Positions 2,760 to 25,935 of a DNA stretch of 32,831 nt are shown here, in pieces. Origin of the DNA: a virus. The notes under the pieces are model-generated. The model did not search any database. It had not been told where the DNA came from and worked only from the letters and a program-made list of their open reading frames with translations. The stretch spans positions 1 through 32,831 of IMG/VR virus record IMGVR_UViG_3300003690_000165; one strand, given 5' to 3'. The position numbers were made by a program, and so were the translations under genes. Within the stretch, counting starts at the first letter, position 1. Each line of letters begins with the position of its first letter.

Positions 2760-3581
2760 TTAGGTAGTATTACTAGCTTCCTCAACATCCTTCTTAACAC
2801 TTATCTCCTCCTTACTAGGTATCCTTACCTTAAATATTAGATCACGTTCATCTATCTCCACCTCTATAGGTGACAGTGTAGTCTTGGCATTACGGGGATT
2901 CTTAGTGAAGGTGAGAGTGAGGTAGTGCATAGGTTTACTAGCCACATGTTTAAGATGAATACTAGTATCAAACCAGTTTTCAAAATAGCTACTACCAAAT
3001 AACTCTTCACCCCATTGGATAGCGTCTAGGTCTAACCCTTGAGACTGTTTACGTAGATGTGCAAAGACTATAATACCTAAGTTATACTTATGGGCCAGGT
3101 TGTCTAAATTATCCTGCCACCGTTGTACATCTACTGCATCAGCAGTACTACGGGTGAAGGTTTTATACAAGGGGTCTACCATTAGTACATCAGGTCTAAT
3201 CCGGGATATCTCACGCTCTAGTAACTTAGCCTCTAGAGGTGCATCCAACTTCAATACAGGTTCGTTGATCCAGTATAGGTTAGGTACAGTATTATCCTTA
3301 TAAGGGTTATGTCTGAGGTAATCACGGATGCGTTCTTGATATGCGAACTTAGGTACCTCAATCTGGACAGATATAACCTTAGACTTAGTAGTGTGTTTGC
3401 CAAACCATGATTCACCCTTGGCTAGTACAAATGCAGTGTGCATGGCGACCATGGATTTCCATGAACCATACTTGCCGAAGATTATTAGTCTCCCCCCTGG
3501 ATAGAGTATAGAGTCCTGAATAATGTTCTTTATATCAGGTGGTTTCCATGTCATGAAGGAGGCAGTGGATTCAATGTCCAT
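2760..3581 (-). CDS. RecA-fold ATPase (AAA_25/RepA-like)
   Basis: A P-loop ATPase of the RecA superfamily, similar in layout to RepA-type hexameric helicases and phage AAA_25 proteins. The Walker A region is FGKYGSWKS (residues 35-43), with tryptophan W41 where glycine usually precedes the lysine; K42 and S43 are kept. Walker B is RPDVLMVDPLY near residue 135, followed by IIVFAHLRKQ, the sensor-like strand and histidine typical of this family. At 273 residues it is a single-domain member. The start at ATG 3581 overlaps the upstream zinc-finger gene by 11 bases. It probably acts in DNA unwinding, replication loading or recombination; the exact role is not visible from sequence. Confidence 0.85.
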   Translation of the reverse strand: MDIESTASFMTWKPPDIKNIIQDSILYPGGRLIIFGKYGSWKSMVAMHTAFVLAKGESWFGKHTTKSKVISVQIEVPKFAYQERIRDYLRHNPYKDNTVPNLYWINEPVLKLDAPLEAKLLEREISRIRPDVLMVDPLYKTFTRSTADAVDVQRWQDNLDNLAHKYNLGIIVFAHLRKQSQGLDLDAIQWGEELFGSSYFENWFDTSIHLKHVASKPMHYLTLTFTKNPRNAKTTLSPIEVEIDERDLIFKVRIPSKEEISVKKDVEEASNTT

Positions 3582-8934: not shown

Positions 8935-8972
8935 ACAAAAAGAGACAGGGGCGGCTCCCTACCCCTATCTCT
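8935..8972 (-). terminator. intrinsic terminator of the 9.75-8.98 kb unit
   Basis: On the - strand AGAGATAGGGG (8972-8962) pairs with CCCCTGTCTCT (8951-8941), with one mismatch and a G+C-rich loop, followed by TTTTTGTG. It lies immediately after the 160-residue gene and closes that transcription unit. Confidence 0.85.
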
Positions 8973-8980
8973 TATTGCAA

Positions 8981-9463
8981 TTACCAGCTTAGATTTTGTT
9001 TTTCACACCAGGCACGCATCTTGGCATCACGTTTGCCACTTAAATTCTTTCTGGCGTGGGCATCTTTTTCCATTTTGATTTCACGATCAAGCTCTAGCAC
9101 CAAAGCTAATAGCTCAGAGGGCGGATTGCTGTTATCGAATGTGCCTCTAAGATCGCCTGTTGTTTTGCGCTCGCCGTTGCTCGCTGTTCTTTTACGGCCT
9201 ATTGTCACACAATGTATTTGGCCATTCTCGTCGTAAGCGAAGCCGAAGCCGTTGTAGCCTATTGCTACAAACTTTTCTACAATGTCAATTCTAGCTTTTC
9301 GGTCGGCCGTGTTTACGTTTGTAGCTTCGGCAAGCAAGCTGTCAAGCGTACGCTTTTTGAGCGTACCCTCAGCTTCAGCTAATTGTGCTTTCAATACAGC
9401 CAGCTTCGTGGCGTCAACGTCAGCAAAAGGATTGATTGTTTCAACGTTTGGCGTCATTGTCAA
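8981..9463 (-). CDS. coiled-coil protein related in layout to the 4372 product, 160 aa
   Basis: Residues about 18-50 form a coiled coil (KLAVLKAQLAEAEGTLKKR); residues about 55-95 carry DRKARIDIVEKFVAIGYNGF and GFAYDENGQIHCVTIGRKR, followed by a basic GERK stretch, an acidic helix and a lysine-rich tail. The same order (coiled coil, '.KA....+...+.G+.G+.F', short strands, GER) is seen in the + strand gene at 4372, although base composition and codons differ strongly, with GGC, GCG, ACG and CGT frequent here. The gap of 49 bases to the upstream gene holds one copy of a 29-base inverted repeat. Ribosome binding site AGGAGAAATTGAC. A DNA-binding, nucleoid-like or masking protein is possible; nothing proves it. 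Confidence 0.7.
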   Translation of the reverse strand: MTMTPNVETINPFADVDATKLAVLKAQLAEAEGTLKKRTLDSLLAEATNVNTADRKARIDIVEKFVAIGYNGFGFAYDENGQIHCVTIGRKRTASNGERKTTGDLRGTFDNSNPPSELLALVLELDREIKMEKDAHARKNLSGKRDAKMRAWCEKQNLSW

Positions 9464-9475
9464 TTTCTCCTATTT

Positions 9476-9504
9476 GTGTTCAGGCTCAATTTAGAACACG
9501 ACAA
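9476..9504. repeat. 29-base inverted repeat, left copy
   Basis: It matches the reverse complement of 9767-9795 at 26 of 29 positions and lies directly upstream of the 8981-9463 gene. Within the copy GTGTTC and GAACAC face each other 12 bases apart, sharing the GTTC/GAAC half-sites of the dyad array at 10097-10243. Confidence 0.75.
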
Positions 9505-9512
9505 GCTATTAG

Positions 9513-9752
9513 CTAAATGAAAGCAAGCTCAGGGCTATCGTTATATGTTAACGTGATTGCTGTTGTACAATGTATTGATACGATCAAGCAATCATGGCAC
9601 ATATATAAAGAATCAAGCTCATAGGGCGTATTGTTCGTAAAGGGGAAGGCGTCAACGATACGTATATCGTCGCCGCAAGCGGCACACAATGTCATTTTAA
9701 CGTTCGTTGAATGTTGATGGCAAGGGCAACAAATTATTATATCATTAGACAT
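9513..9752 (-). CDS. small zinc-binding protein, 79 aa
   Basis: The protein shows CCPCH near the N-terminus, then LCAACGDD, then YMCHDCL, three closely spaced pairs that could hold one or two zinc ions. ATG 9752 follows AAGGAAAAATC. It is the first gene after the promoter at 9898-9926 and has a leader of about 140 bases that contains one copy of the 29-base inverted repeat; the other copy lies after its stop codon, so the gene is bracketed. Composition is unlike that of the neighbouring phage genes. Function unknown. Confidence 0.65.
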   Translation of the reverse strand: MSNDIIICCPCHQHSTNVKMTLCAACGDDIRIVDAFPFTNNTPYELDSLYMCHDCLIVSIHCTTAITLTYNDSPELAFI

Positions 9753-9766
9753 GATTTTTCCTTAAT

Positions 9767-9795
9767 TTGTCGTGCCCTAAAATGAGCCTGAACAC
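9767..9795. repeat. 29-base inverted repeat, right copy
   Basis: Partner of 9476-9504 in opposite orientation, 26 of 29 bases matching. It lies in the leader just upstream of the ribosome binding site of the 79-residue gene. In the - strand transcript the two copies are complementary and could pair around that gene. Confidence 0.75.
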
Positions 9796-9897
9796 GCTAT
9801 ATATTTAATTGTTAATGTGCAAGCTGGGAGCCTAAGCCCGCTATCAATCATGCCGCATGCCTCAATATTGCGGCTGTCGTATTTAATTGACATTCAT

Positions 9898-9926
9898 AAT
9901 ATATCATATGCTGTTAGCGTTGTCAA
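9898..9926 (-). promoter_or_regulatory. sigma-70 promoter of the island
   Basis: On the - strand TTGACA (9921-9926), 17 bases, TATATT (9898-9903). It lacks the TGAC-N4-GTCA dyad found at the phage early promoters. It would transcribe the 79- and 160-residue genes up to the terminator at 8935-8972. Confidence 0.75.
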
Positions 9927-9981
9927 TAGCACAGGCGTTCGACTTTTGGCATTGGCGCCAAATGCGATCCATTGTTTGTTG

Positions 9982-10085
9982 TATGTGCAATTACAATTGA
10001 TTGCATGTGCGATAGCATGCATATGCAATCGTTTGCAAATGCGGATGACATGTATGTGCAATGATATGCATGTGCGAATGACATG
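9982..10085. repeat. iteron-like block of TGCA-containing repeats
   Basis: TATGTGCAAT occurs at 9982-9991 and 10053-10062, GCATGTGCGA at 10003-10012 and 10068-10077, and ATGACATG twice near 10045 and 10078. Between them lie further TGCAA and TTGCA words (ATATGCAATCG, TTTGCAAATGCG). The block is non-coding, repeats on both strands, and adjoins the dyad array. Candidate origin or regulator-binding region. Confidence 0.55.
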
Positions 10086-11007: not shown

Positions 11008-11241
11008 TTAGACTCCATCACTCCTTAGTCTAAAGCATCCACCATTTTCAACTATATTATCCATCCCTGTCCATAGCGCAAGTTTAGCAGTTTGGTATAA
11101 GTAACGATCCTTATTCCACGCACACTGAGCACAATTAGCGATAGTTCGACCTATGATAGTAATATCCTCTATCCATAAAAACTCTGCTTGATCTCTATAA
11201 TGCTCTGTCCCTGGTACATTTGGTTTATTCTCAACTAACAT
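11008..11241 (-). CDS. hypothetical protein, 77 aa
   Basis: No family is recognised. The middle reads DITIIGRTIANCAQCAWNKD, with a CxxC pair, followed by a helix YLYQTAKLALWTGMDNIVEN and a final CFRLRSDGV. It overlaps the TSCPD gene by 11 bases. The position suggests a link with nucleotide metabolism, without direct evidence. Confidence 0.6.
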   Translation of the reverse strand: MLVENKPNVPGTEHYRDQAEFLWIEDITIIGRTIANCAQCAWNKDRYLYQTAKLALWTGMDNIVENGGCFRLRSDGV

Positions 11242-11605
11242 TCTGGAATTCCTTTACTGCGTGGAAAATGCCCTCAGCAGGAGATTTAACCCAGGTTTCG
11301 AAGTAACCATCTGAAACAGGGTGACATTCTAATCCCTGGAGTTCATCTATGAATACATCTATAGGTACGCCATGTTGGATACCAGCAGAGATAACTCTAG
11401 TTAATGCTTCTACCCAGACTTTGAGGCAGGGGTTAGCTTTACCCTCGCCTTCAGTAGGTTTACCTAGATTGGCGATAAGTTCAAAAGGTTTACCTTTTAC
11501 CTTGTAGCCGATGGTGAGGTATAGTATGCCATGACCGGTTTGCACCTTAGGTGTGACTGATTGGAGGAACTGGGGTCGTACCTTTTTACGCACTTTTACT
11601 CCCAT
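11231..11605 (-). CDS. stand-alone TSCPD-domain protein
   Basis: The sequence TGHGILYLTIGYKVKGKPFE, ELIANLGKPTEGEGK, then VEALTRVISAGIQHGVPIDV and ELQGLECHP follows the TSCPD domain pattern (tGcg.lYvti....g.pfEvf..lGk.g......EAi.RliS.alr.Gv.....i..L.gi.C) found at the C-terminus of B12-dependent (class II) ribonucleotide reductases. Here it stands alone at 124 residues, and the usual cysteine of TGCG is histidine (TGHG). Stand-alone copies occur in many phages next to nucleotide genes. No reductase is in the window. It probably modulates the host's reductase or nucleotide pool; that is inference. ATG 11605 overlaps the MazG-like gene by 20 bases. Confidence 0.8.
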   Translation of the reverse strand: MGVKVRKKVRPQFLQSVTPKVQTGHGILYLTIGYKVKGKPFELIANLGKPTEGEGKANPCLKVWVEALTRVISAGIQHGVPIDVFIDELQGLECHPVSDGYFETWVKSPAEGIFHAVKEFQNVS

Positions 11606-12627: not shown

Positions 12628-12667
12628 GGACTATAACATTCTTTATTATTGACAATTAAATTGGCAC

Positions 12668-12696
12668 TTGACATTCACAACTAAGTATGATATGCT
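12668..12696 (+). promoter_or_regulatory. promoter of the late (head) operon
   Basis: TTGACA (12668-12673), 17 bases, TATGCT (12691-12696). The predicted start is near 12703, immediately ahead of an AGGAGGTGAT site that is fully complementary to the usual 16S rRNA tail. It lies back to back with the promoter at 12599-12627. Confidence 0.7.
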
Positions 12697-12712
12697 AAGG
12701 AGGAGGTGATAT

Positions 12713-13303
12713 ATGACTAATGCAGATATGGTTATTACTTCAGACGGCCAACAGATAGATGAATCTCCCTCTCAAGCTGCCGTAGAAAGCTTTATACCTT
12801 ACTTTAGTTTAGATAGCCAAAAGACCAAATACCTGAGCTATAGGGCTACTGGATTCACAGTGAGGGAGTCCGCTCAACTTGCAGGTATTGGTAAGAAATG
12901 GCCTGAGAGACAGATCAGGCGTTGGAGAGCGAATGACCCTCTATTCGCTTACTGGGATGGGGAAGGTATTGTTGAACTCCAGAAACAAGCTGGTGCCCAT
13001 TTCACCTTTGCCGAATTTACTCGTAACTTTAGACTTGCGATGGAGAAGGATGCGAAGGTACTGCATAAGTCTATGCTGGAGGGTGAAGAAGGTGAGGATG
13101 GTAATATTGTCTATTTGACCAAGGAGGAGCACGAGTACTTGCTCAAGATTAGACCTCTATACTCTCCCCAGGCTTTAGAGGCTATTACTAAGGTACTTAA
13201 ATCCGGTGGCGAGGATGGTAAGAAATGGAACTTCACCGAAGCTGTGGTAGAGTTGAGTAGCGGCGGTACCGTGACATTTAGACAAGGGGAAGTAAGTGCC
13301 TAG
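12713..13303 (+). CDS. terS: terminase small subunit candidate
   Basis: It is the first gene of the late operon and stands two small genes upstream of the large terminase, the usual place of the small subunit. Residues about 38-75 form a helix-turn-helix (KYLSYRATGFTVRESAQLAG, then KKWPERQIRRWRANDPLF), as in DNA-recognition domains of small terminases. The middle is helical and charged and could oligomerise; the C-terminus has a short beta segment (SGGTVTFRQGEV). At 196 residues the length fits. No specific sequence family could be confirmed by eye, so the call rests on motif and position. Ribosome binding is near-perfect. Confidence 0.7.
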   Translation: MTNADMVITSDGQQIDESPSQAAVESFIPYFSLDSQKTKYLSYRATGFTVRESAQLAGIGKKWPERQIRRWRANDPLFAYWDGEGIVELQKQAGAHFTFAEFTRNFRLAMEKDAKVLHKSMLEGEEGEDGNIVYLTKEEHEYLLKIRPLYSPQALEAITKVLKSGGEDGKKWNFTEAVVELSSGGTVTFRQGEVSA

Positions 13304-13454
13304 TAAGGTAATCAAACCAAAGTTATATGGTCGTTCTAAACATCCAGTGAGTAATAGAGAGAATAGAATATGTGAAGGTTGTGGCGGTAAGTTTAACATA
13401 GTAATGATTAAACCAGATACCCTTTGTAAAGTGTGTACACTTGCCCAGACATAG
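13296..13454 (+). CDS. zinc-finger microprotein, 52 aa
   Basis: GTG 13296 overlaps the end of the small terminase gene by eight bases and has AAGGGGAAGTAA upstream. The product is basic at the start and carries CEGCGGKFNIVMIKPDTLCK followed by VC, a CxxC...CxxC zinc knuckle. It resembles the small zinc proteins of the early region but is expressed with the late genes. A link with packaging (binding DNA ends or terminase) is possible; no direct evidence. Confidence 0.65.
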   Translation: MPSKVIKPKLYGRSKHPVSNRENRICEGCGGKFNIVMIKPDTLCKVCTLAQT

Positions 13455-13560
13455 ACAATCAGTTAGACAACAGTCAGCAAGGAGGAGTAATATCCGCTCT
13501 GCTCAACATAGTCGTAGAGGCAGACATAATCAAAGATACCGTAGGCGTAGACATAGATGA
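13441..13560 (+). CDS. very arginine-rich peptide, 39 aa
   Basis: The frame from TTG 13441 ends in TGA overlapping the ATG of the large terminase (ATGA), which supports a real, coupled gene. About half of the residues are arginine, histidine or glutamine (for example RRGRHNQRYRRRRHR), a protamine-like make-up suited to binding DNA or RNA. The TTG lacks a Shine-Dalgarno site; a good AAGGAGGAG lies further inside without a standard start codon behind it. Arginine-rich reading frames can arise by chance in purine-rich DNA, so confidence is limited. Confidence 0.4.
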   Translation: MPRHRQSVRQQSARRSNIRSAQHSRRGRHNQRYRRRRHR

Positions 13561-15107
13561 ACTACACAGTTAAGGAACTAATCCAGAATGAGATTCTATT
13601 CACTGAGACTCTAGTTCAAATTGCAGATAAAGCCAGACGGACAGTACCCTTCCATCGTAACCATATTCAAAAAGAGTTTGACAAAGCTGAGACAGGTAGA
13701 GATGTCATAGTCAAACCAGCTCAGGTGGGATTTAGTTCAAGGCTAATCTCCAAAATATTACATCGTACTATTACCATACCCAACACAACTAGCGTTATAG
13801 TTGCCTATGAAGATTTCATCACTCAGAGATTACTTAACAAAGCCCAGAGTTTCTACGATAGTCTACCTAAAGAATTTAGACCAGAAATGGACCGTCGGGG
13901 AACTCATGAGAAGTTCTTTGCGGATATTAACTCTGTGTTGTATATTGGTTCTGCTCGCTCCTTTACCTTTGCCAGAGGCGAGGCAATCCATAATTTTCTG
14001 GCTGATGAGTACGCATTCTGGCCAGACCCTGAGAGAATAATGGGACCTGCACTTGATAGAGTAGTCAAACCCCACGAAGGGGGTAGATTTTGGGTACTCA
14101 GTACTCCTAACGGTATGGAGAATGCTTTTTACGATATCTATATGAATGCGAAGGAAGGGGTGGAGATAGGCGGTAGTCCTTTCACCCCCCATTTCTATCC
14201 ATGGTATATCCATGAGGAGTATAGGTTAGAAGAGGGCCATCCAGATGCATTACCTAAAGATCAAGGTAAATTAGTTAATCTAGACAGTGACGAGTATACA
14301 CTGAGATCAATTGGTATAGATGATGAACAACTTAGATGGAGAAGGTTAAAAAAGGCTGAGAAGGAGATACTGAGAAGGTCTGGGGAGACGAGAGTACTAT
14401 TTGAACAGGAATATCCCTCTAATGATATTACCTGTTTCCTAACCGCAGGAGATATGGTCTATGATGCGGATATGGTTAACTCTAAAGCTAAACAGTGTAA
14501 AGAACCACTTATTAAGGATAGAGATGTATGGATCTGGGAAGCGCCTAAACAGAATCAAATTTACCATATGCCAGTAGACCCAGGCCAAGGTAAGCAAACT
14601 AAAAGTGTAATTCAAGTATGGAGGTACTGGTGGGAAGAGGTAGATGGTCGAGAGATAGAATACGGTAAGCTCTGTGCGAACTTCTCTGAAATTGCCGGTA
14701 TTACTGAGACTAACAATCAGATGGAGCGCATGGGTCAGATGTATGGTAATGCCAAATCAGCTATAGAAGCTAATGGGCATGGATTGGGTTTAATCCATGA
14801 GACAAGTTATAATAACTTATATATGCGGAAGGATATAGTTAAAAATATAGAAACTATGGTACCGGGATGGTATACGTCACCTAGAACTAAACCTACTATG
14901 ATTAAAGAGTTAATGAAGATGTTACCTAATTTGGAGATTCCAGATCTTAGAGTAATCTCAGAGCTAAGGAATATCCGTGAAGACCCTATGAAAAAAGGTT
15001 TGTATGTGAGTGTAGGAGCAGATGATAACCACGACGCTGCGGCTATAGGAGTAATTACTAGAGATTCACGGCCAATAGAACACGAGATGATAGAATATGG
15101 ATGGTAA
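13557..15107 (+). CDS. terL: terminase large subunit
   Basis: The packaging ATPase-nuclease that drives DNA into the head and cuts it. ATPase part: Walker A-like KPAQVGFSS (residues 53-61), Walker B NFLADE ending in D150-E151, coupling motif LSTPNG (181-186). Nuclease part with RNase H fold: MPVDPGQG with D341, AIEANGHGLG with E404, and VGADDNHDAAA with D490 and D493. At 516 residues it is full length. ATG 13557 is preceded by a stop in its own frame, so the start cannot lie further upstream. Together with the portal three bases downstream it defines the late module. Confidence 0.95.
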   Translation: MNYTVKELIQNEILFTETLVQIADKARRTVPFHRNHIQKEFDKAETGRDVIVKPAQVGFSSRLISKILHRTITIPNTTSVIVAYEDFITQRLLNKAQSFYDSLPKEFRPEMDRRGTHEKFFADINSVLYIGSARSFTFARGEAIHNFLADEYAFWPDPERIMGPALDRVVKPHEGGRFWVLSTPNGMENAFYDIYMNAKEGVEIGGSPFTPHFYPWYIHEEYRLEEGHPDALPKDQGKLVNLDSDEYTLRSIGIDDEQLRWRRLKKAEKEILRRSGETRVLFEQEYPSNDITCFLTAGDMVYDADMVNSKAKQCKEPLIKDRDVWIWEAPKQNQIYHMPVDPGQGKQTKSVIQVWRYWWEEVDGREIEYGKLCANFSEIAGITETNNQMERMGQMYGNAKSAIEANGHGLGLIHETSYNNLYMRKDIVKNIETMVPGWYTSPRTKPTMIKELMKMLPNLEIPDLRVISELRNIREDPMKKGLYVSVGADDNHDAAAIGVITRDSRPIEHEMIEYGW

Positions 15108-15110
15108 ATA

Positions 15111-16826
15111 ATGCCAACACTAGATAGAGCGACGACTATTCGAAGTAGATGTAATAGTCTGCAGAAAAATCATTCAGTGAGGAATAAGAAGATTCAGGAA
15201 TGGTACAAAATTATCAACCTTGAGGAGAATAAAGAGATACCTCCTCGAATGGAGAACTTTACTGGTAATGACCCTAAGACATACTTTACCATGAGTAGAT
15301 TCCTCCTTACCAACCCTGCGATCCACAACATTATAGATACTAATAGGATGAATGAGAAACAGTCTGAGGCGGTGGGATTGTTAGAAGACCTCGCTGATCT
15401 AGGTTGGGCAGATAACTTTAAACAAGCATTACAACAGGGTAGAGGTGGATTCCTGTATAGGTTTAGTGGACTACTAATTGCTCAAGGTGGTTACGCAGTC
15501 TTTGCCAAGGCTTTTAGTGATAGACTAATAGCCCAGGTCTGGAACCCTTATCAGGTATTTCCAGACTTTGATGATTGGACTAATGGTCCTAGTGAAGTAT
15601 GTAGGATATACGAAGTACCAGTTGCTAAGGCTAGAAGTATTGCGTATAGTAATGGTTGGGTAATACCTAATTTTAATTTCCAAGGTAATACTAAGATCTA
15701 TAATTACTTTGGCTATACGGATGAAATGGTACCTTATAACACGGTGTTAATAGGTAATGACGTGGTGAGGTGGACGGAGATAGGTGGAAGTAGGTTGCCA
15801 GTATATTATAGCACAGCGGGTGGGATACCAGATATAGATGTAGTACTAGGTAGTACAGAGAACTTTCCTGGAGAAAGTATCATAGCGACTAATATAGGTA
15901 TCTATAAGAACCTGAACCGCACTATGACTCATATTCAACAGATAACCAAGGATACTGCTCAACCGCCAATTAAGGAATATAGTTCTAATGCAGATAAAAA
16001 AATAGTCGATGAGAATAAAATATTCACTAGAGCCTACGTGATGAGAATGGGTACGGGTGAAGATGTAAGGGTATTGGACATGCCCAGTCTACCTCCCGAA
16101 ACTACCTCCCATGCAATTAACATCAATGATATGAGACAAAGAGGTAGTGTCCCTGACATAGCCTTTGGCAATCTCCAGCAGAGTGGATTAAATAGTCTAA
16201 TGATGAGCCAGGTTACCCAAGCTGCACTTAGTGCACTACAGCCTTACCTAGATGTAACTGTCTCTCTATTCAATGAGATTAATGATATGTGGGTGAAGGA
16301 GGTATTAGATAGAGGCTGGTCACCATATGGCTGGATTAAACCTACTAACTTACCACCCGTTGATGATATAAAGTTTAATACAGATTTCAGGGTGAAGATA
16401 CCTGGTGATCTAGTCAGTCGAGCCACTACCATGCGGATGTTGGCACCAGATATAGAGATCAGTCCTGAGACTACACTAAGCTTACTATTCCCTGAGATTA
16501 AAGACCCAGCTAGAGAACTGGCTAAGGCTCATAGTTCAAAGGTAATGAACCATGCAATTGAGGAAACGAGACAACTGTTAGAAAGTTATCGGGTTAGAGC
16601 TGAACAGTTAAAAACTGAAAATCCGAGGTCAAGTGAATTATACTCTAAAATTGCAGCTAGGTTAGAACAAGAACTTACTGGTGAGACTGAACAGGATCCT
16701 GCTCCTTCACCTAGACGTACCTCACCTAGACGGAACCTTCCTATCCCTCGACAGGAAGTATTACCCCAGGAAGCAGGACCGGTCAATGGTAATGTACCTC
16801 AAGTTCCTGAAGAGGCAGGTTTATAA
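15111..16826 (+). CDS. portal protein
   Basis: The 571-residue product directly after the large terminase has portal features: the N-terminal RMENFTGNDPKTYFTMSRFL and LLTNPAIHNIIDT, a long alpha/beta core, and a C-terminal tail with a helix (ETRQLLESYRVRAEQLKTEN) followed by a proline- and arginine-rich end (SPRRTSPRRNLPIPRQEVLP). Portals form the dodecameric ring through which DNA enters and leaves. Spacing of three bases to the terminase and overlap TAATG with the next gene indicate one operon. The call relies on both sequence pattern and position. Confidence 0.85.
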   Translation: MPTLDRATTIRSRCNSLQKNHSVRNKKIQEWYKIINLEENKEIPPRMENFTGNDPKTYFTMSRFLLTNPAIHNIIDTNRMNEKQSEAVGLLEDLADLGWADNFKQALQQGRGGFLYRFSGLLIAQGGYAVFAKAFSDRLIAQVWNPYQVFPDFDDWTNGPSEVCRIYEVPVAKARSIAYSNGWVIPNFNFQGNTKIYNYFGYTDEMVPYNTVLIGNDVVRWTEIGGSRLPVYYSTAGGIPDIDVVLGSTENFPGESIIATNIGIYKNLNRTMTHIQQITKDTAQPPIKEYSSNADKKIVDENKIFTRAYVMRMGTGEDVRVLDMPSLPPETTSHAININDMRQRGSVPDIAFGNLQQSGLNSLMMSQVTQAALSALQPYLDVTVSLFNEINDMWVKEVLDRGWSPYGWIKPTNLPPVDDIKFNTDFRVKIPGDLVSRATTMRMLAPDIEISPETTLSLLFPEIKDPARELAKAHSSKVMNHAIEETRQLLESYRVRAEQLKTENPRSSELYSKIAARLEQELTGETEQDPAPSPRRTSPRRNLPIPRQEVLPQEAGPVNGNVPQVPEEAGL

Positions 16827-17182
16827 TGCAACAGAGAGATGAAATTAGACCGCCAGTACCGTTCCCGCCAAGTAAGATAGGTCATGTACCTCCACCTGGT
16901 AGAACACCTTTTGAAGTTATTAGGAAATTAGGTGCGGCGCAGAGATTGGATTTAACTACACTTAGTGATGCTAGATTTCAAGTATCTAGTGAACTCAAGT
17001 CAAATAGAATTGGAATAGAGAGTTTAGATGCTAATATAGGTAATCTACAACAACTACATACTGAGAAGTATAATGAGGTAGCAGGGTTAATCTCATTATC
17101 TATGGATATACCTCGTGTAGGAGGTCAAACTAATCGTGGTGGATCTATTATTTCCAGATTCTGGAGTTTCAAAAATAGATGA
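16826..17182 (+). CDS. hypothetical structural protein, 118 aa
   Basis: ATG 16826 overlaps the portal stop. The N-terminus is proline-rich (PPVPFPPSKIGHVPPPGRTP), followed by a helical, coiled-coil-like region (IESLDANIGNLQQLHTEKYN). The last 47 bases overlap the start of the giant gene, which continues in the +1 frame with another coiled-coil segment; the two may once have formed, or may still form by frameshifting, one protein. A clear AGGAGG site for the giant gene argues that it is started separately. No family is recognised. Confidence 0.65.
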   Translation: MQQRDEIRPPVPFPPSKIGHVPPPGRTPFEVIRKLGAAQRLDLTTLSDARFQVSSELKSNRIGIESLDANIGNLQQLHTEKYNEVAGLISLSMDIPRVGGQTNRGGSIISRFWSFKNR

Positions 17183-20100
17183 ACAGAGAGCAGCACTAGT
17201 AACTAGTAGGCAAGAACTAGCTGCCATGGATAGAACACTTCAACTTCTTATCCAGGATAAGACAGATGCACTAAGTAGAGATAGTAGGCTTACGTGGCAA
17301 GATTATATACTCACCGCAATAGATAGAATAGATCCCATTGTTACCTTCTTTGATGAAGATGGTAATCTGCAATTTGGATCTCCCGAAGAACTAGTTAGTC
17401 TATTCCGTAATGAAGGTGGGTTTGAACATCTTAATGCAGAGGACGTGGAATGGTTAACAGGGGTTATCTCAAGGGCTAAAGAGGAGATTGCTGAGAGGTT
17501 AACTGAAACTATTCCCTTAGAGAAGTTCTACTTAGAGCAAAAAGCAGGTAACGTAAGAGCTATCTCAGATATGACTATTGAGGAGACTGTTAAAGCACTT
17601 GCATTTGGTGATCGACCTGTACTTACTCCTGCCCAGGCGTTTAGATATAACCAACAACTCTCAGTGATTCTACAAAGAGCGGGTGATTTGACTGAAACAG
17701 AGAAAACTGAGGCTTGGACCCGAGACATCTTAAATAGGATGTCTGAGATTAATGCTGAGAGGGAAGCAAGTATCCAGGGGATGGTGAGCCTAGGATTCCC
17801 CGAGATAGGTATGTGGAGACAACTATATATGGGGGTAGTGAGTCCTGCCATACTAGGTTTAGAAGCAGTTCAAGCCTATAGTAAATACTACGTCATGCCC
17901 TGGGCGGCAGCAGTACTAATTGAGGGTAAAAAGTTAAACGCTATATATAATAGTGTATTTCCTACTCTTGCACTACCTCAAGGGGATGTATCCCTAGGAC
18001 CTCTTGCAGCTTGGCAGTTTGGATTAGTTACCCTAGAAAAACTAGCGCCTTTTGATTTTAAGCTAGATGAACTAGAGATGAGTTTTAAAGAACTAGACAG
18101 AGATAATAATCGCTGGATGGCTTACTCTAAAGCCTATGAGGAATGGGAAGCTAACGGGGCGGTTAAGTTAGGAATAGAGCTAGCTCTAGACCCTCTCACC
18201 TATGTGGGGTTTGGAATAACTACAAAGATACTTAAACCTATTCCATTGGTAGGTAAACACCTCGCCGCATTTAACCACGGCTATATGCAGTTTACTGATG
18301 ATATGGTGAGTGGGGTATTCAAATCTGTGCGAGGATTCCCCAAGACTATAGCTATGAAGTCGATGATTAAATCCTCAGATATCCATGTGAGTCTTTTAAA
18401 TAACTTCTTTAGAGTAAGTGGCAAGTATATAGATGATCTAGGTACTAAATCAGGTGGTGAGTTAGTAGCAGGTTGGATGAAACTAGCCGCATTGTTAGTA
18501 GGTAAAGGCAAGTTGCTAGGTAGTGGTCCTATTCAACAGATTCAAACTACCCTGATGCAGTCATCGAGTAAACGAGTAATTAGACCTGAACAGATATCTG
18601 GTACTGCACTTAAATTACTACGCTCAGATATTATTACTAAAGTAGACGATGTAACAGTTACTCAGTTCTCTGATGTCCAAAACTACTTTAATAAAGCACT
18701 AGCTGATGACTCAGACGCCAATATAACTCAAACGGCACAGAAGTTAGTAGAGATACTATCCCCAGGTCAAAGTGGTCAGCCACGAATACTAAAGGAGATG
18801 ACAGGTGCACTGAGAACGTGGATAGCAGACCTTCGAGCAGATATGATTAAACTTACCACGCCTAGAGGTAATGAAGGTGGATTTAGTATAGTTGAACGTG
18901 TGGTAAAGGAGGCGTTTACTTCTGAAGACGATATTCTAAGGATACCCACACAAGTACTTCACGAAGGTAGCTTTCTGGGGTACCAGTACCAAAAGGGTAT
19001 AGTTAGTGGGATGTTAAGTGGAGTAGATGCTACGACTAGACTGCTCTGGACAAATTGGTTAGAGAAGAAATTAATTATCCCTTTCAGCAGAGCATTTCTA
19101 GTCTTCGGCGCATATGGGCCATTTAACTTACTAGAAGGGATAATGAAACCACTTCTCGAGGATCTGCCTGCGCTGTTCGTCTCCAAACGTTTTGGGTTCA
19201 TGGGGACTAAGTGGTCACCTAAGCATAGACATGATGTAATAGCCAGGGGTATAGAGAGGAAAGTAACAGAGCTGGAAGGAGGGGCAATCGTTGAGCAGCT
19301 AGGTCCTATTGGGGATGGAGATATGGGTAATATTGCTGAGAGGATACTAGCTCTAAGGATTAGTAAAAACTTTGATGCCTACCACTGGATGGTCCGAATG
19401 TTTGGCAGGATTGGACTGAACCAGCGTGCGGACTTCATGGTCAAAGCTACTCATAGGGAGTTATGGAGGCAGGACTATGAAACTATGCAGGTGCTGGATA
19501 AGGAATTTATTAAATTATGGAGGAAGTACCCAGGTATAGATTCTGAATTTGATGGCATGATGGAGACTATACTTAGGGATGCGTTAACAGTAGATGAAGC
19601 AACCTTTAGAGAAACTGTAGAAATCGCACTGCGGACAATCCCTGAACATAGGGTGGAACAAGTATTAAAACGCTTCCCTGATCTAGGGGTGGAATATAGA
19701 CAGATAATTACCGAAGGGGTTAGAAGTGGCGAGATGTTCTCTAATCCTAAATTCTTTGGCAACCTTAGAGAGGTAGCAGTTAATGTAACTCTCAGACATC
19801 CTCGAGATATGTCTCGAAGGTTTGATAAACTAGTAGCGGAGTTTAGGAAGCTACAACCACAGAACTACAAGGAGCTGTTGAATAAGTTTAACCAGGTACT
19901 AGAGCTAACACATCTGCGTCAGAGGGTTCATCATAGTATCCAGAAACAAGCTGATCTAGTGGCGAGGGGTAAGTCTGTCGCAGATAAGGATAAGATGTTC
20001 AATGAGGTCTACGAAGGGTTACAGGACTTCCTCCGTACCTCTAATGATTCTATCTCTGCAATGACTACTCAGATGAAGCACCATCTGGAGATACAACTAC

Positions 20101-23100
20101 AACCACCTGTAGAGTGGGGGAAGGTAACTATAGCAAAGGGGTTGAATAGACAAAGGGTTAGAGATGTAGTTAATAACCTTCCATTAGATCTGAAAATATC
20201 TCTAAAGAATATCCGTATAACTGGAGGTAGTGATCGGGAAATAGCTAGTCAGATATTCCAGGAGTATCTAGAAGATAGTATACTAAAAGGTAATCTCCAA
20301 CCCTTTGCTGAATACTTGAACCGTACTGGATTTACTGAAGCTGCTGAGGATATGACAGCACAGGTATTCCAAGTAGGTGCGAGGAACCTCACCCCTGCCG
20401 GAAATGCTAGAGAGTTAATGAAACGGTTTAGAGCGAAGGATAGTGTATTTAATATAAAGCGGCTGGCTGACGAATTCGCAGATTATGCTAGAGCGAGCAG
20501 TAAACAAGACTATATAGATATTAGTTTTGATAAAGATATCAGTTGGTTCATTGGTGATAGACCCCTAGACGTCAAGGAAGTAGTAGATCGGGCTCGTAAT
20601 CAATTCGATGCCTTTGAATCTATCTGGCCAAAACGTCTCTCCACACTAAGAGGAGACGTCCCTAATCAAGACCTCATCCACGTGGACAACATGATCCAAC
20701 TTATGGATGAGTATAATGTGATCTACAACGAGGCGTTTACTAAGTTTAATAACTTCCGTACCACCCACTTTGCCAACAGACCTAAAAACCTAAAGGATAA
20801 GGTTGCCCAGGGTAAGTTCTGGGATGAATACTTCTACAACAAGCAGGTCATATTTGACGATGTTGAGAAGGTAGCTAACGATATGCTTAAAACCCGTGAG
20901 GTACCGATTAGCGCCTTCCTAGCTAGGGCAGAACAACCACCTCACGTAATGCCAGCATTAAATGGGACTATCTCTACAAATGATGTGGTACAACTGTTAG
21001 GCGGCGGTAGTCCTCAGGACCTAGATCAATCTGTACTAAGTGAGTTCCTCCAGACCCTGGCAGATAAAGATACTTGGATTGCAACTATCCGTGGTAAAGC
21101 TAATATGATGGGTAAGTACCACAAGATCGCTGATGAGATGATTGAACAGGTATGGAGTGAGGAGAGGATAGGTCAAGTATATGATAGACTAGTCACCCAA
21201 CAATTCCCGATGATTCAAAATGCAGTAAAGGAATATAACTCTCCTCTATTCCAGCAGATTCACGACATTGAACAGGAGATGGGTCAAGTAGCTAGGCTGA
21301 GAGGTTGGGATGAGAGTAGACAGAATTTAATCCGCCAGTGGGTGGATGATAGTGCAAATGAGTTAAATAAGAACCTTCACCTCCAACAGATACAGTGGAC
21401 AAAACCAAGTGGGATAAGGACTTATGGAGGTCCTAGTAAAAAGATAAAGATATTTAGCACTAATGAAGAGTTGTTCGATGCGGGGGATGTATCAGAGATT
21501 AGCGCTGGCTTTGGCAGGTGGTTATCTAATATTCAAAAAGAGCAGATTGGAGGGACTCTCTGGGATGGAGATGAACTCCGAGAGGCAGGTCATAGATGGG
21601 TGACAACCGCAGTTGACTATTTCCCTCCACCCCGACGTGCAGCGATTAGAGATAACTTTGGCAAAGTAGCAGAAGCTAATGAAGCATATCAGATTGATTT
21701 ACGTATAGGTCTCCAAGAGCAATTTGGTGATACTGTCACTGTTTGGAGAGGAGTTAGACTGAAGGATTTTGGTACTCTAGGTACCGGTGGCCATGAGTAT
21801 ATAAATGTAACGTTAAATAAAGACACTGCAGCGAGTTTCTCTGATCTGAGCGGTGCCGGTATTGTTCAGAGAATGGAGATACCTACTAATGAAATAGTGG
21901 CGTTGGGTAGTGGACCTGAATCGGAGTTAATAATCCATAATAGAGCATTTAGGGAGGTAGATACACAACTCAAAATACACCTAGACCGTGAACAGAGTAT
22001 TAGAGACTTTCTCACTCTCAAAGAGGTGAATAGGCAGAACGTAACTGAAGTATTTAACTCTCTTAACCAGGCAATTACTGAGATGGAAGGTGCAGGTGTG
22101 CATCCGACTATGGTAAATAGTGTTAGAGAACGACTGAGGAAACTCTATAAAGCTGACTTCGAAGTTTCTGAGTTACCCTCTGCAGCACTATTTGACTTTG
22201 CAGATGCACTGAGAGACATAGAAATACCTCCCTTCGAGTTCAAACCCCGCACTTGGCGTGAAACTAGAAACGCTGCCTACGATGATGCAAGTAAGCTCTA
22301 CTTCAACTCATTCGCAGACTACGCTCATCCAACTGCTGTCAACCAATTCATGCGAAGTATATTCCCTTATTGGACATACGAAGCTCACCGTTGGCACTGG
22401 ATAATGAGAGAAGCAATAAGACATCCAGGCACGGCTGCGGCGTGGGGTAAGTATATGGACTACTCAGACAATGGGTACATACCACTACCCTTCTCGGACT
22501 CCATGCAGTTCAACCCCCTGAGAGGGACTATCTTCATGGGTGGGATGTCTAGACTAATGCGCCGAGACTTCCCTGAGTTCCAGGACAATATGCCTGCGAT
22601 TGCTGAACCAATAGACATGCTAGGTAGATTTGGGTTCTATCCCAACGTAGCTATCATGGGTATATTACAATTCATAGGTCCAGGTGACCCTAGACGGAGA
22701 CAGGCTTATAGTCAAGTAATACCCTCTACTTGGATGAGTATCCTGTATGGACTACAAGGTATTCCAGGTACAGATAGCTTCAATCGTCTGACTGAGATTT
22801 TATTCCCTGAACCTTTTAGAGACTACTACACAATGTTGGCAGCGGGAGATATGATAGCAAATAACCCTGCCATCTATAATCCTGATGAGATTAGTGCAGT
22901 AGATATATGGACTAAGAAGTTCAGGGGTACCAAGCTACTACCTTCTGAACAAGAGCTTTGGGATAAAGCATTTAGAGCTTCTTCTAAGAGTCTATTACTA
23001 ATGAACCAAGCTGGTGTGCTTAGAATGCAACCTAAAACTCTAATACTAGCGCAACAGGAAGTTAGGGAACTGATAGAGGACTGGACAGGTGTTAGCGTAG

Positions 23101-24125
23101 AGAGACAAGAAGCTCTTAATCGTAGAGGTATGAGATATAATGACTTCATCCGTAAATACTTAACCTTAGAACAAATGGAAATACTCAATAACCTAGACGC
23201 CTTTAAAATCTGGGCAGGGAAAGTAATTCCATTACTACCTTCCCTTGAAGGTAGAGAACGAGTTATCCACTATGAGTTCTGGGACAGCGTAGTAAGGAGT
23301 AGAGAGGACGCAGCTGGATTAGGTATATTCCACCCTGAAACAGGTGAACAGATATCTAAAGGTATGGAGCAGATAGACGCAGACTTTAGACTGACGGGTA
23401 ATTCTACTGTATGGAAAAGTGACCTAGGAGATATTCAAGGTGCACTGAATGATTTTAGAAATATACTAAGTACACTGCCACAGTATAAGGATATCCCTAT
23501 CACCCGTGAACAGCGAGAGGCAGTATGGGCAGAGACTGGTATACATCCCTTGGCGTGGAGTCCTGAGGAGGAGATACTATTTAGTTACTATGAGGTACAG
23601 GTAAAAGAGGTAACTAGATTCAATGAGGACGTAGGTAGGTATGAGAAGTACCTAGACTGGGATACTTTCTGGGCACAGAGAGAGACTATCCTCAGCATGG
23701 TAAAGGAAAGGAATTATGAGTTCTATCTTAGATTAATAAATAAAATAGATAAGAACCTAACTGAACTAGGCCGGGTGTTTAGACAGTATAGTAGAGAATG
23801 GAAAACACCTTATAGAGGGATAACTCAAATAGTTCTAGAGACCTTTACAGACGAAGAGAGAAGTATTATCCGCAGTTACCGCTCTGCTACCCTAGAGGAA
23901 CAAAATAGACTACGTGAGCTAAAGAATGACCAAGGTAAGATAATATCTACTTATGATGCTAAACTAACGGGAACTAGAAAACGCTGGAGAGAAGTTAACC
24001 CAGAAGGTGAAGCCTGGATGTTGTTCTTTGGTGATGTAAGTACAGCAACTACCGATGAAGCTTGGGAGATATACCTAGCTTTTAAGGTACAACATGACAT
24101 AGCTAGTGGGTTGGGGAGCGAATAA
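17136..24125 (+). CDS. giant virion/ejection-type protein (2,329 aa) with predicted ADP-ribosyltransferase domain
   Basis: GTG 17136 follows AGGAGG by about ten bases. The protein lies between portal and scaffold, where inner-capsid or ejection proteins are encoded. It is mostly helical, with segments such as DPLTYVGFG (near 352), FLVFGAYGPFNLLEGI (near 655) and FPYWTYEAHRWHW (near 1742) that recall large phage virion proteins. Residues about 1440-1612 look like an ADP-ribosyltransferase of the R-S-E class: TVWRGV with R1538, EYINVTLNKDTAASFS with T1559 in the place of the S-T-S strand, and GPESELIIH with E1595 and E1597 forming the ExE pair. Such a domain would transfer ADP-ribose from NAD+ to a host target, as packaged T4 Alt does. 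Composition matches the neighbours. The virion role is inferred from place and size, the ART call from motifs only. Confidence 0.8.
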   Translation: MVDLLFPDSGVSKIDEQRAALVTSRQELAAMDRTLQLLIQDKTDALSRDSRLTWQDYILTAIDRIDPIVTFFDEDGNLQFGSPEELVSLFRNEGGFEHLNAEDVEWLTGVISRAKEEIAERLTETIPLEKFYLEQKAGNVRAISDMTIEETVKALAFGDRPVLTPAQAFRYNQQLSVILQRAGDLTETEKTEAWTRDILNRMSEINAEREASIQGMVSLGFPEIGMWRQLYMGVVSPAILGLEAVQAYSKYYVMPWAAAVLIEGKKLNAIYNSVFPTLALPQGDVSLGPLAAWQFGLVTLEKLAPFDFKLDELEMSFKELDRDNNRWMAYSKAYEEWEANGAVKLGIELALDPLTYVGFGITTKILKPIPLVGKHLAAFNHGYMQFTDDMVSGVFKSVRGFPKTIAMKSMIKSSDIHVSLLNNFFRVSGKYIDDLGTKSGGELVAGWMKLAALLVGKGKLLGSGPIQQIQTTLMQSSSKRVIRPEQISGTALKLLRSDIITKVDDVTVTQFSDVQNYFNKALADDSDANITQTAQKLVEILSPGQSGQPRILKEMTGALRTWIADLRADMIKLTTPRGNEGGFSIVERVVKEAFTSEDDILRIPTQVLHEGSFLGYQYQKGIVSGMLSGVDATTRLLWTNWLEKKLIIPFSRAFLVFGAYGPFNLLEGIMKPLLEDLPALFVSKRFGFMGTKWSPKHRHDVIARGIERKVTELEGGAIVEQLGPIGDGDMGNIAERILALRISKNFDAYHWMVRMFGRIGLNQRADFMVKATHRELWRQDYETMQVLDKEFIKLWRKYPGIDSEFDGMMETILRDALTVDEATFRETVEIALRTIPEHRVEQVLKRFPDLGVEYRQIITEGVRSGEMFSNPKFFGNLREVAVNVTLRHPRDMSRRFDKLVAEFRKLQPQNYKELLNKFNQVLELTHLRQRVHHSIQKQADLVARGKSVADKDKMFNEVYEGLQDFLRTSNDSISAMTTQMKHHLEIQLQPPVEWGKVTIAKGLNRQRVRDVVNNLPLDLKISLKNIRITGGSDREIASQIFQEYLEDSILKGNLQPFAEYLNRTGFTEAAEDMTAQVFQVGARNLTPAGNARELMKRFRAKDSVFNIKRLADEFADYARASSKQDYIDISFDKDISWFIGDRPLDVKEVVDRARNQFDAFESIWPKRLSTLRGDVPNQDLIHVDNMIQLMDEYNVIYNEAFTKFNNFRTTHFANRPKNLKDKVAQGKFWDEYFYNKQVIFDDVEKVANDMLKTREVPISAFLARAEQPPHVMPALNGTISTNDVVQLLGGGSPQDLDQSVLSEFLQTLADKDTWIATIRGKANMMGKYHKIADEMIEQVWSEERIGQVYDRLVTQQFPMIQNAVKEYNSPLFQQIHDIEQEMGQVARLRGWDESRQNLIRQWVDDSANELNKNLHLQQIQWTKPSGIRTYGGPSKKIKIFSTNEELFDAGDVSEISAGFGRWLSNIQKEQIGGTLWDGDELREAGHRWVTTAVDYFPPPRRAAIRDNFGKVAEANEAYQIDLRIGLQEQFGDTVTVWRGVRLKDFGTLGTGGHEYINVTLNKDTAASFSDLSGAGIVQRMEIPTNEIVALGSGPESELIIHNRAFREVDTQLKIHLDREQSIRDFLTLKEVNRQNVTEVFNSLNQAITEMEGAGVHPTMVNSVRERLRKLYKADFEVSELPSAALFDFADALRDIEIPPFEFKPRTWRETRNAAYDDASKLYFNSFADYAHPTAVNQFMRSIFPYWTYEAHRWHWIMREAIRHPGTAAAWGKYMDYSDNGYIPLPFSDSMQFNPLRGTIFMGGMSRLMRRDFPEFQDNMPAIAEPIDMLGRFGFYPNVAIMGILQFIGPGDPRRRQAYSQVIPSTWMSILYGLQGIPGTDSFNRLTEILFPEPFRDYYTMLAAGDMIANNPAIYNPDEISAVDIWTKKFRGTKLLPSEQELWDKAFRASSKSLLLMNQAGVLRMQPKTLILAQQEVRELIEDWTGVSVERQEALNRRGMRYNDFIRKYLTLEQMEILNNLDAFKIWAGKVIPLLPSLEGRERVIHYEFWDSVVRSREDAAGLGIFHPETGEQISKGMEQIDADFRLTGNSTVWKSDLGDIQGALNDFRNILSTLPQYKDIPITREQREAVWAETGIHPLAWSPEEEILFSYYEVQVKEVTRFNEDVGRYEKYLDWDTFWAQRETILSMVKERNYEFYLRLINKIDKNLTELGRVFRQYSREWKTPYRGITQIVLETFTDEERSIIRSYRSATLEEQNRLRELKNDQGKIISTYDAKLTGTRKRWREVNPEGEAWMLFFGDVSTATTDEAWEIYLAFKVQHDIASGLGSE

Positions 24126-24306: not shown

Positions 24307-24867
24307 ATGCTAGATGATTCTAAAGATGGAGATGGACAGAACACTGGAGATGGAGACGGGGAAGGTGAAGGTGGCGGGGTTGATAAAAGTACACCATCTA
24401 CTTCTAAAATGGTCAAAGAATCTGACCTCATGGCAGTGAAAAGTCAAAATAAGGAAGCTAATGAGAAGGTAACTAACCTTACTTTTGACCTCTCCACTTC
24501 TAATGACAAGGTTACTAAACTTGAAGCCGAGATATTAGGCTTAACTGAAAAGGTAACTAATGCTGCATCCTCTGAAGATGTAGAGAAGCTGAAGTCTGAA
24601 CTGGCGGCCAGTACGGAAAGCCGTGAGAGGTTGGAGAAACAACTTCTCGATAATAGAGTAAATAGTTTAGTCACTACACATAAGATAGATAAGGCTAAAC
24701 TGGAAGGTAAGTCCTCAGACCAGCTTGACCTCCTGGAGGAGGTTCTAAAGGGTACGAGTGAAAGTAGCAAAGGGTTTGATCTTAGCGGAGGCGGTGGAGG
24801 AACAATTCGACCTGAGAAACCTAGAGATAGAATCCTAGCTGCGTTAAATGCAGAGAATAACCGTTAA
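24307..24867 (+). CDS. capsid scaffolding protein
   Basis: The product precedes the major capsid gene and has scaffold character: an acidic, glycine-rich N-terminus (DGDGQNTGDGDGEGEGGG), a long charged coiled coil from about residue 38 to 125 (EKVTNLTFDLSTSNDKVTKL and onward), a serine/glycine linker (DLSGGGGGT) and a short basic tail (RPEKPRDRILAALN) of the kind that touches the capsid shell. No protease domain is present. Scaffolds guide procapsid assembly and are then removed. Start and GGAGGTGA site are clear. Confidence 0.8.
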   Translation: MLDDSKDGDGQNTGDGDGEGEGGGVDKSTPSTSKMVKESDLMAVKSQNKEANEKVTNLTFDLSTSNDKVTKLEAEILGLTEKVTNAASSEDVEKLKSELAASTESRERLEKQLLDNRVNSLVTTHKIDKAKLEGKSSDQLDLLEEVLKGTSESSKGFDLSGGGGGTIRPEKPRDRILAALNAENNR

Positions 24868-24885: not shown

Positions 24886-25935
24886 ATGGCCGTAGTTGGT
24901 CACTGGGAAAACCTGGCAGAAGCTGAGAAGCTTACGCAGTCTATGTTGCTCTCTGGAGTAATAGACACTGTGATAGAAGCTGGTCAGTTGATACCAAGGA
25001 TGCCCATTAAACAGATATCAGGATTAGACCTTGTTTACAACCGTGAGAAGTCTAGCAATGCTCAGGATGGCGCTGGATTCTATGACATCCGAGAGCAGAT
25101 TACCTGGACATCTGACGTAAGTTATGACAAGGTGACAGTACCTCTGAAGCGAGTCATTAGACAGGACCCAATTGACAAGTTTGTAGAGATGACTTACAAC
25201 AACGTCAATGACTATAAAGCTCTGATGATCCAACAGTTGGCGAAGCGAGTAACTAGATTCCTTGAACACCAGATTATCTATGGGGATGTCACCTATGGAG
25301 GGTCAAAACAGTTTGATGGTCTCCACGCAATGGCAGAGGAACTTACTGGTGACTTAGACGTAGATATGGGTGAAGCTGGTCTATCCCTTATGACTCTGAG
25401 GAAAACCTTAGATGCTTGTAAAGTAGACCCAGATAAAGCAGGTGCAGAAGGTGTGTTCTGGTTGTTCCCACGTGAGATAGCTAGACGAATGTCTGCTGCT
25501 TACTTTGAACAGGGGATAACCACTGGCGGTTCTAACACATTAAGTCAATCATCCTTAATCTCTCAATCAATAAACGATGCGGGTAGACGGGTGATGGCTT
25601 TTGACAACATACCTATAATAGTTTCAGACTTCCTCCAAGCAGAACAAGATAATACTGGAGTAGGTAGTGATGCTAGAGCATTGTATACTGCTGACGATAA
25701 ACAGTATTCAGTGTTCCTCATACGAATGGGACAGACTGAAGATGGTGGTCTCTCCATGCTGTTTGGTGGTGGTGGGAGTGAAACAGGAGAAGTATTTAGG
25801 CGAGAGACATTTGAGAAACTAGAGGACTTTGACTCTGGCGGAGAACGTCTTGTCACCTACATGGCTCCAGCACTGGGTGCACAGCATAGTCTTGCAAGGA
25901 TATACGACATAGAGGATGTAGCCGTAGTAATATAG
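24886..25935 (+). CDS. major capsid protein (HK97-type fold expected)
   Basis: The 349-residue product follows the scaffold gene and has the look of an HK97-type capsid protein: an N-terminal helical part (LAEAEKLTQSMLLSGVIDTV), an extended loop region (SGLDLVYNREKSS), the spine-like helix FVEMTYNNVNDYKALMIQQL, a peripheral domain with FDGLHAMAEELTG, and a C-terminal beta part in which a named motif (FDNIPIIVSDFL) is typical of these shells. ATG 24886 follows AAGGAAGGA. It forms the head shell. The call rests on pattern and position. Confidence 0.88.
   Translation: MAVVGHWENLAEAEKLTQSMLLSGVIDTVIEAGQLIPRMPIKQISGLDLVYNREKSSNAQDGAGFYDIREQITWTSDVSYDKVTVPLKRVIRQDPIDKFVEMTYNNVNDYKALMIQQLAKRVTRFLEHQIIYGDVTYGGSKQFDGLHAMAEELTGDLDVDMGEAGLSLMTLRKTLDACKVDPDKAGAEGVFWLFPREIARRMSAAYFEQGITTGGSNTLSQSSLISQSINDAGRRVMAFDNIPIIVSDFLQAEQDNTGVGSDARALYTADDKQYSVFLIRMGQTEDGGLSMLFGGGGSETGEVFRRETFEKLEDFDSGGERLVTYMAPALGAQHSLARIYDIEDVAVVI

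Follow-up and report, generated by a model that had tools for sequence, protein, structure and literature searches.

A predicted R-S-ExE ADP-ribosyltransferase occupies an exchangeable slot of a giant phage protein

Introduction

Phages and conjugative elements encode polyvalent proteins, which are large, comprise many domains, and are predicted to be injected; among the domains are those of the ADP-ribosyltransferase (ART), GNAT, zincin, and ParB types (Iyer et al., 2017, PMC5512222). According to that survey, R-S-E ARTs of the Alt/VIP2 type are absent from genuine polyvalent proteins; a 2022 survey describes Alt/VIP2 and N4-ART family ARTs that are fused to MuF (PMC9503650). We analyzed a 32,831 nt virus record (IMG/VR record IMGVR_UViG_3300003690_000165, the whole of which we call the window) in which one gene encodes a 2,329-residue protein with a predicted ART embedded at an internal site, S3. 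This protein and its relatives, which we call carriers, share a scaffold with three insertion sites; the ART family, the slots, their turnover, and the gene order described below were computed.

Carriers resemble polyvalent proteins in being very large chains with ART, GNAT, zincin, and ParB-like domains that are encoded near virion genes. They differ in that a carrier slot takes both the R-S-ExE type and ART-PolyVal-like domains, in that the scaffold lies outside Pfam families, and in that fixed sites with empty versions are revealed by comparison. T4 Alt and the Alt/VIP2 clade share with the S3 ART the R-S-E active-site class, a tailed-phage gene, and a proposed delivery from the head; T4 Alt, however, is a separate head protein, whereas the S3 ART is embedded in a giant carrier and has no detectable sequence similarity to Alt. 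The genes for MuF-fused ARTs and MuF polymorphic toxins also adjoin the portal gene and encode variable effectors (PMC5576092, PMC9503650), but in MuF toxins the variable domain is C-terminal and is accompanied by an immunity gene, whereas the variable domains of carriers are internal. Because Alt/VIP2 and N4-ART domains fused to MuF have been described (PMC9503650), an R-S-E ART within a head-gene protein of a phage is of a known kind. What is new is its place in a multi-slot polyvalent carrier, where it alternates with other ARTs.

Results

Site S3 of the Window Protein Very Probably Holds an ART

The giant protein and the predicted active-site residues are encoded as follows.

17136 to 24125, plus strand: giant carrier protein, 2,329 residues, GTG start, from the open reading frame and its translation; polyvalent-type scaffold with three insertion sites
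21543 to 21953, plus strand: ART homology region, residues ~1470-1606, from two alignments, a BLASTP match between the window ART slot and the slot of relative L065 (6e-10), and the family fold
21747 to 21749, plus strand: codon of R1538, predicted NAD-binding arginine of the R-S-E triad; invariant, 7/7
21810 to 21812, plus strand: codon of T1559, aligned with the family NVTSS motif at an STS-like position; invariant, 7/7
21918 to 21926, plus strand: codons of E1595-S-E1597, the ExE motif with the predicted catalytic glutamate; invariant, 7/7

The initial annotation of the window had proposed an ART at 21450-21975, and the residues that it named are all present in the 2,329-residue open reading frame: R1538 (codon 21747) within TVWRGV, T1559 (21810) within INVTLNKDTAASFS, and E1595 and E1597 (21918 and 21924) within GPESELIIH. 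The motifs fall within the proposed interval, but the inserted segment is wider, comprising residues ~1413-1705 (21372-22250). The motif layout alone is weak evidence, because a loose R..S/T..ExE pattern occurred in 127 of 2000 shuffles of the window protein; a tighter pattern, composed once the homologues were known, occurred in 0 of 2000.

Domains homologous to the window ART were found in six other carriers (L049, L059, L065, L066, L076, and L077). At positions that align, all seven slots conserve W, R-G, N-x-T, and E-S-E, and because this conservation holds at pairwise identities of ~23%-52%, the ART motifs exceed chance. When a viral collection was scanned with the R-S-E ART domain, matches were obtained only in the S3 slot of family members. 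As a query by itself, the window ART matched nothing in Pfam, NCBIfam, PHROGs, PDB sequences, or phage records; six plasmid matches were judged to be due to chance.

AlphaFold models were built from seven sequences for the L059 slot and from five for the window slot. The L059 model had a predicted local distance difference test score (pLDDT) of 76 and a predicted template modeling score (pTM) of 0.74. Foldseek ranked Vis first (E 0.055), followed by matches that included iota-toxin Ia, BECa, Plx2a, and CDTa, and in a VIA-align comparison with the PDB all 50 listed matches were R-S-E ARTs (Vis, iota-toxin Ia, VIP2, and C3; Z 4.4-5.3, with ~125-142 residues aligned). Although each score is modest, a list of this uniformity would seldom arise by chance. 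These best structural matches of the family model are bacterial toxins that act on eukaryotic cells, with ~8%-15% sequence identity to the model, and the ExE motif is shared with the arginine-specific members. By analogy with ExE enzymes, the S3 ART, which is of the R-S-ExE class, would probably modify arginine.

The window model matched ART folds less well. Its pLDDT was 59 overall and 70-80 for the greater part of residues 90-260, and its best Foldseek match was KptA, an ART-superfamily enzyme (E 0.18, probability 0.84), with Vis lower down; its top matches by Z were long-helix matches to the helical tail and were disregarded. The models put successive strands at R, N-x-T, and ExE, in that order. 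The comparison of predicted structures with ART folds that had been suggested as a check favored an ART, at modest scores, for the L059 family model and was weaker for the window copy, and the embedded ART is borne out at the level of the family, by its invariant R, N-x-T, and ExE positions and its R-S-E ART fold matches. We regard the window region as very probably an ART.

Carriers Share a Scaffold with Three Insertion Sites

Relatives of the giant protein, 1.8-2.8 thousand residues in length, are encoded on ~50 environmental phage contigs. Comparison with these relatives defined the following parts of the window protein.

20943 to 21371, plus strand: conserved block of the scaffold on the left side of S3, residues 1270-1412; the left hidden Markov model (HMM) was found in nearly all relatives
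21372 to 22250, plus strand: insert at site S3, residues 1413-1705, predicted R-S-ExE ART and helical tail; from scaffold HMM boundaries and slot extraction
22251 to 22835, plus strand: conserved core of the scaffold on the right side of S3, residues 1706-1900; it contains the PYWTY motif, and relatives have an intein site in it; from the scaffold alignment
20109 to 20447, plus strand: insert at site S2, residues 992-1104, probable decayed zinc-metallopeptidase domain
19746 to 19748, plus strand: site S1, after residue ~871, empty in the window and filled by zincins or GNAT in relatives; from the insertion map

In ~45 carriers, insertions of at least 45 residues fell at three sites (after window residues ~871, ~1016, and ~1416) or at a single intein site. 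Because inserts between neighboring columns are pooled in the profile alignment, these positions are accurate to about ten residues. The window protein (P0001) has a further 82-residue insert near S2 that lies outside this pattern. The S3 stretch measures 9-27 residues in one half of the relatives and 89-360 residues in the remainder. In L006, the closest relative of the window protein, S3 is empty.

A zincin profile made from five relatives matched residues 992-1029 of the S2 insert of the window protein (domain E 0.0017), where QEYLE replaces HExxH. Judging by these residues, the S2 insert is probably the remnant of a zinc-metallopeptidase that has lost its HExxH motif.

Intein-like insertions of ~300 residues are found at PYW^TY in the scaffold core of L065, L066, L067, L068, L069, L072, L076, and L028, slightly displaced in the last of these; the window protein has no intein. 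A C-terminal extension of ~900 residues in another carrier (L013:6992-9853) contains a hydrophobic stretch and a HEIGH peptidase motif.

Slot Contents Differ among Relatives

In the 50 relatives, S3 is empty in 25 and contains an R-S-E ART in 7, another ART-like domain in 9, a GNAT domain in 4, and an unassigned sequence in 5. ART-PolyVal-like domains occupy S3 of L015 (twice, in tandem), L020, and L055, with Pfam values that run from 7e-7 through 3e-5 to 3e-4, below the curated cutoff. Similarity or motifs identified further ART-like domains in L001, L008, L024, L010, L012, and L048, the labels for the last five being given on motifs only. Because a profile comparison of the R-S-E ART slots with the ART-PolyVal-like slots showed no relation, we treated the two as separate fillers. 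GNAT acetyltransferases at S3 were above the Pfam cutoff in L044 (2.5e-7) and L055 (2.4e-5), and weaker in L053, L072, and L003. Tandem cargo is present at S3 of L055 (ART-PolyVal and GNAT, 8957-9997) and L015 (two ART-like domains, 12659-13510), and the S3 sequences of L023, L045, L030, L009, and L060 (89-165 residues) have no family assignment.

Sites S1 and S2 contain HExxH peptidases (zincins) in L017, L048, L062, L051, and L076. Other cargo at these sites comprises a GNAT-like domain in L077 and an ART-like domain in L053, both recognized by eye, and a ParB-like domain in L059 (Pfam ParB_N, 9e-6). The presence of several disparate enzyme domains, as in polyvalent proteins, is thus seen across the family (ART, GNAT, zincin HExxH, and ParB_N); the domains of the window protein itself are the ART and the probable dead zincin, and no LPD, ArdC-N, or H-Y-D ART-PolyVal domain was found in it.

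These contents bear on whether the S3 insert might be a structural or binding module that has no enzyme activity and is retained in a tolerant loop. Half of the relatives do without an insert, and the S2 peptidase of the window protein seems decayed, so dead inserts do occur in the carrier. A module of this kind nevertheless seems improbable to us, because R, N-x-T, and ExE are retained in every one of the ART homologues despite their divergence, and because the independent fillers are likewise enzyme folds.

Cargo Turns Over Independently of the Scaffold

We mapped the slot states on a tree of 50 carriers from which the slot columns had been left out (a tree made quickly, in which the window branch is long). 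The five S3 states required 24 changes, compared with a mean of 23.3 for shuffled labels, and the R-S-E ARTs required 7 changes for 7 rows. When only empty and filled slots were distinguished, there were 16 changes, of which at least 14 are forced by well-supported branches. The state of S3 is independent of scaffold phylogeny.

In several pairs, the cargo is more alike than the carriers: identities in cargo and scaffold are 60% and 28% for the GNATs of L044 and L053, 60% and 34% for the ART-like domains of L012 and L048, and 52% and 30% for the R-S-E ARTs of L066 and L077. Conversely, a whole domain distinguishes L003 (GNAT) from L004 (empty) within flanking DNA that is 91%-92% identical, and L019 (empty), L020 (ART), and L024 (another ART) have flanks with 84%-87% DNA identity. 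Because similar cargo is found in dissimilar carriers and different states are found between near-identical flanks, exchange between carriers, beyond descent and loss, is the better reading, and we have little doubt that S3 is a fixed slot with exchangeable cargo.

Rapid slot turnover, together with the inteins in the scaffold core, would also fit inserts that are selfish passengers of the same scaffold, as inteins are, with no benefit to the phage. We consider this very unlikely: the slot domains are without splicing or homing motifs, they retain their catalytic positions, and their effector families are ones that polyvalent proteins are known to contain.

The Carrier Gene Lies between Terminase and Capsid Genes

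The genes that flank the carrier gene in the window are as follows.

13557 to 15107, plus strand: terminase large subunit; Pfam Terminase_6N 3.8e-4, tblastn against annotated terminases 3e-22
15111 to 16826, plus strand: putative portal protein, from position and from synteny in all relatives with enough flanking sequence
24307 to 24867, plus strand: putative scaffolding protein, from position and weak coiled-coil matches
24886 to 25935, plus strand: major capsid protein; PHROG 212 "major head protein" 4.8e-20, with annotated capsid relatives

The order terminase, portal-like gene, giant gene, capsid gene was found in every relative with enough flanking sequence. A location near terminase, portal, and capsid genes, which is characteristic of polyvalent proteins, thus applies here by similarity for the terminase and the capsid protein and by position for the portal. 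The initial annotation had placed the gene between portal and scaffold. Because the putative portal matched no library, this placement holds only in part: the terminase and the major capsid protein are identified by similarity, the portal and the scaffolding protein by position, size, and synteny.

Tape-measure genes do not usually lie before the capsid gene. The location of the giant gene is therefore unusual for one, and it bears on the proposal that the giant protein is mainly a tape measure or a conduit for DNA ejection, to which cargo is secondary. In its favor, the giant gene is the longest in the three records inspected, in which no long tape-measure gene was found and one 646-residue gene weakly matches a tape-measure PHROG. 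We regard a mainly tape-measure or conduit role as doubtful, since it leaves the swapping of enzymes unexplained, although it would be compatible with cargo delivery.

The carrier-encoding phages are roughly 42 kb in size, several of the relatives' records being 41-47 kb. No carrier match was found in 50,697 phage records, whichever of three members was the query, and bacterial genomes gave one weak match, on a 5.6-kb contig binned as a gammaproteobacterium, which is possibly a binning artefact. The scaffold of the giant protein had no Pfam or PHROGs match; a match of a conserved scaffold block to SulA (Pfam E 0.005) was below the cutoff of that family and was rejected, and one weak match to an SLT transglycosylase (E 0.0024), seen in 1 of 22 carriers, could not be placed in the sequence and was set aside.

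Elsewhere in the window, two genes on the minus strand encode a stand-alone TSCPD domain protein (11231-11605; Pfam 3.8e-11), with a domain that is elsewhere found in ribonucleotide reductases, and an AAA_25 (RecA-like ATPase) protein (2760-3581; Pfam 4e-20).

Discussion

We think it likely that the gene encodes a phage-head-associated polyvalent carrier, with a helical scaffold that holds interchangeable enzymes at three internal sites and an R-S-ExE ART in the third. With somewhat less assurance, we favor a role in which the giant protein is packaged, injected, and acts on the host. We infer delivery from gene order, and enzyme activity, its target, packaging, injection, and the advantage to the phage are inferred as well. 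The mostly helical conserved scaffold, whose gene accompanies those for terminase, portal, and capsid, would be packaged with the DNA or next to it, and it would enter the host at infection. The ART, either free or still tethered, would then modify a host protein, such as a component of defense or transcription, and relatives would swap or lose cargo as their hosts change.

Several observations weigh against an injected ART carrier. The window ART is the most divergent of the seven copies; a profile made without it ranked it as the best match outside the family, with an overall E of 0.0008 and a domain E of 0.018. The fold scores are modest, with a best Foldseek E of 0.055 and Z values no higher than 5.3, and the identity of the putative portal, which had no match in any library, comes from position, size, and synteny. 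No MuF domain was detected in 22 carriers at E 0.01, a threshold that a very divergent MuF could escape. The family belongs to uncultured environmental phages that are known from sequence, and its scaffold is unlike that of any known packaged protein. Finally, the gene lies among late morphogenesis genes, which would also suit an active ART that is not injected but made late and that acts within the cell producing the phage, or on virion proteins as particles assemble; the 2022 survey mentions that ARTs encoded close to packaging genes might instead counter immunity aimed at the portal or terminase (PMC9503650). An ART that acts late seems unlikely to us, because action in the producing cell needs no fusion inside a large carrier, and because ART, GNAT, zincin, and ParB domains, which occur together in carriers, are the repertoire of proteins predicted to be injected.

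The libraries and literature that we searched contained no description of the carrier family, the three fixed slots, or the cargo turnover. The suggestion that the protein is an undescribed effector carrier was therefore half right: the family, its slots, and their turnover have no counterpart in what we searched, whereas large, injected multidomain polyvalent proteins have already been described (PMC5512222). Carriers are an undescribed protein family that is polyvalent-like in its workings.

Returning to the injected carrier, we lean slightly toward a reading in which one conserved virion protein serves as a cartridge holder with three sockets, whose enzymes are swapped among distantly related phages. 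On this reading, to which we give the same slight preference, the enzymes would be R-S-E ARTs, other ARTs, acetyltransferases, peptidases, and ParB-like nucleases, and the delivery protein would stay constant while the injected set varied.

The carriers form a natural series, in which the sites of the same protein are empty or differently filled while the surrounding DNA is as much as 92% identical, and this series makes it testable which part serves delivery and which part is exchangeable cargo. With it, R-S-E ARTs enter the polyvalent setting; the 2017 survey had placed the Alt/VIP2 type outside that setting. Reading out the slots also gives a computational means of finding new anti-defense enzymes. 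Together, the carriers suggest a modular delivery of differing enzymes into infected bacteria.
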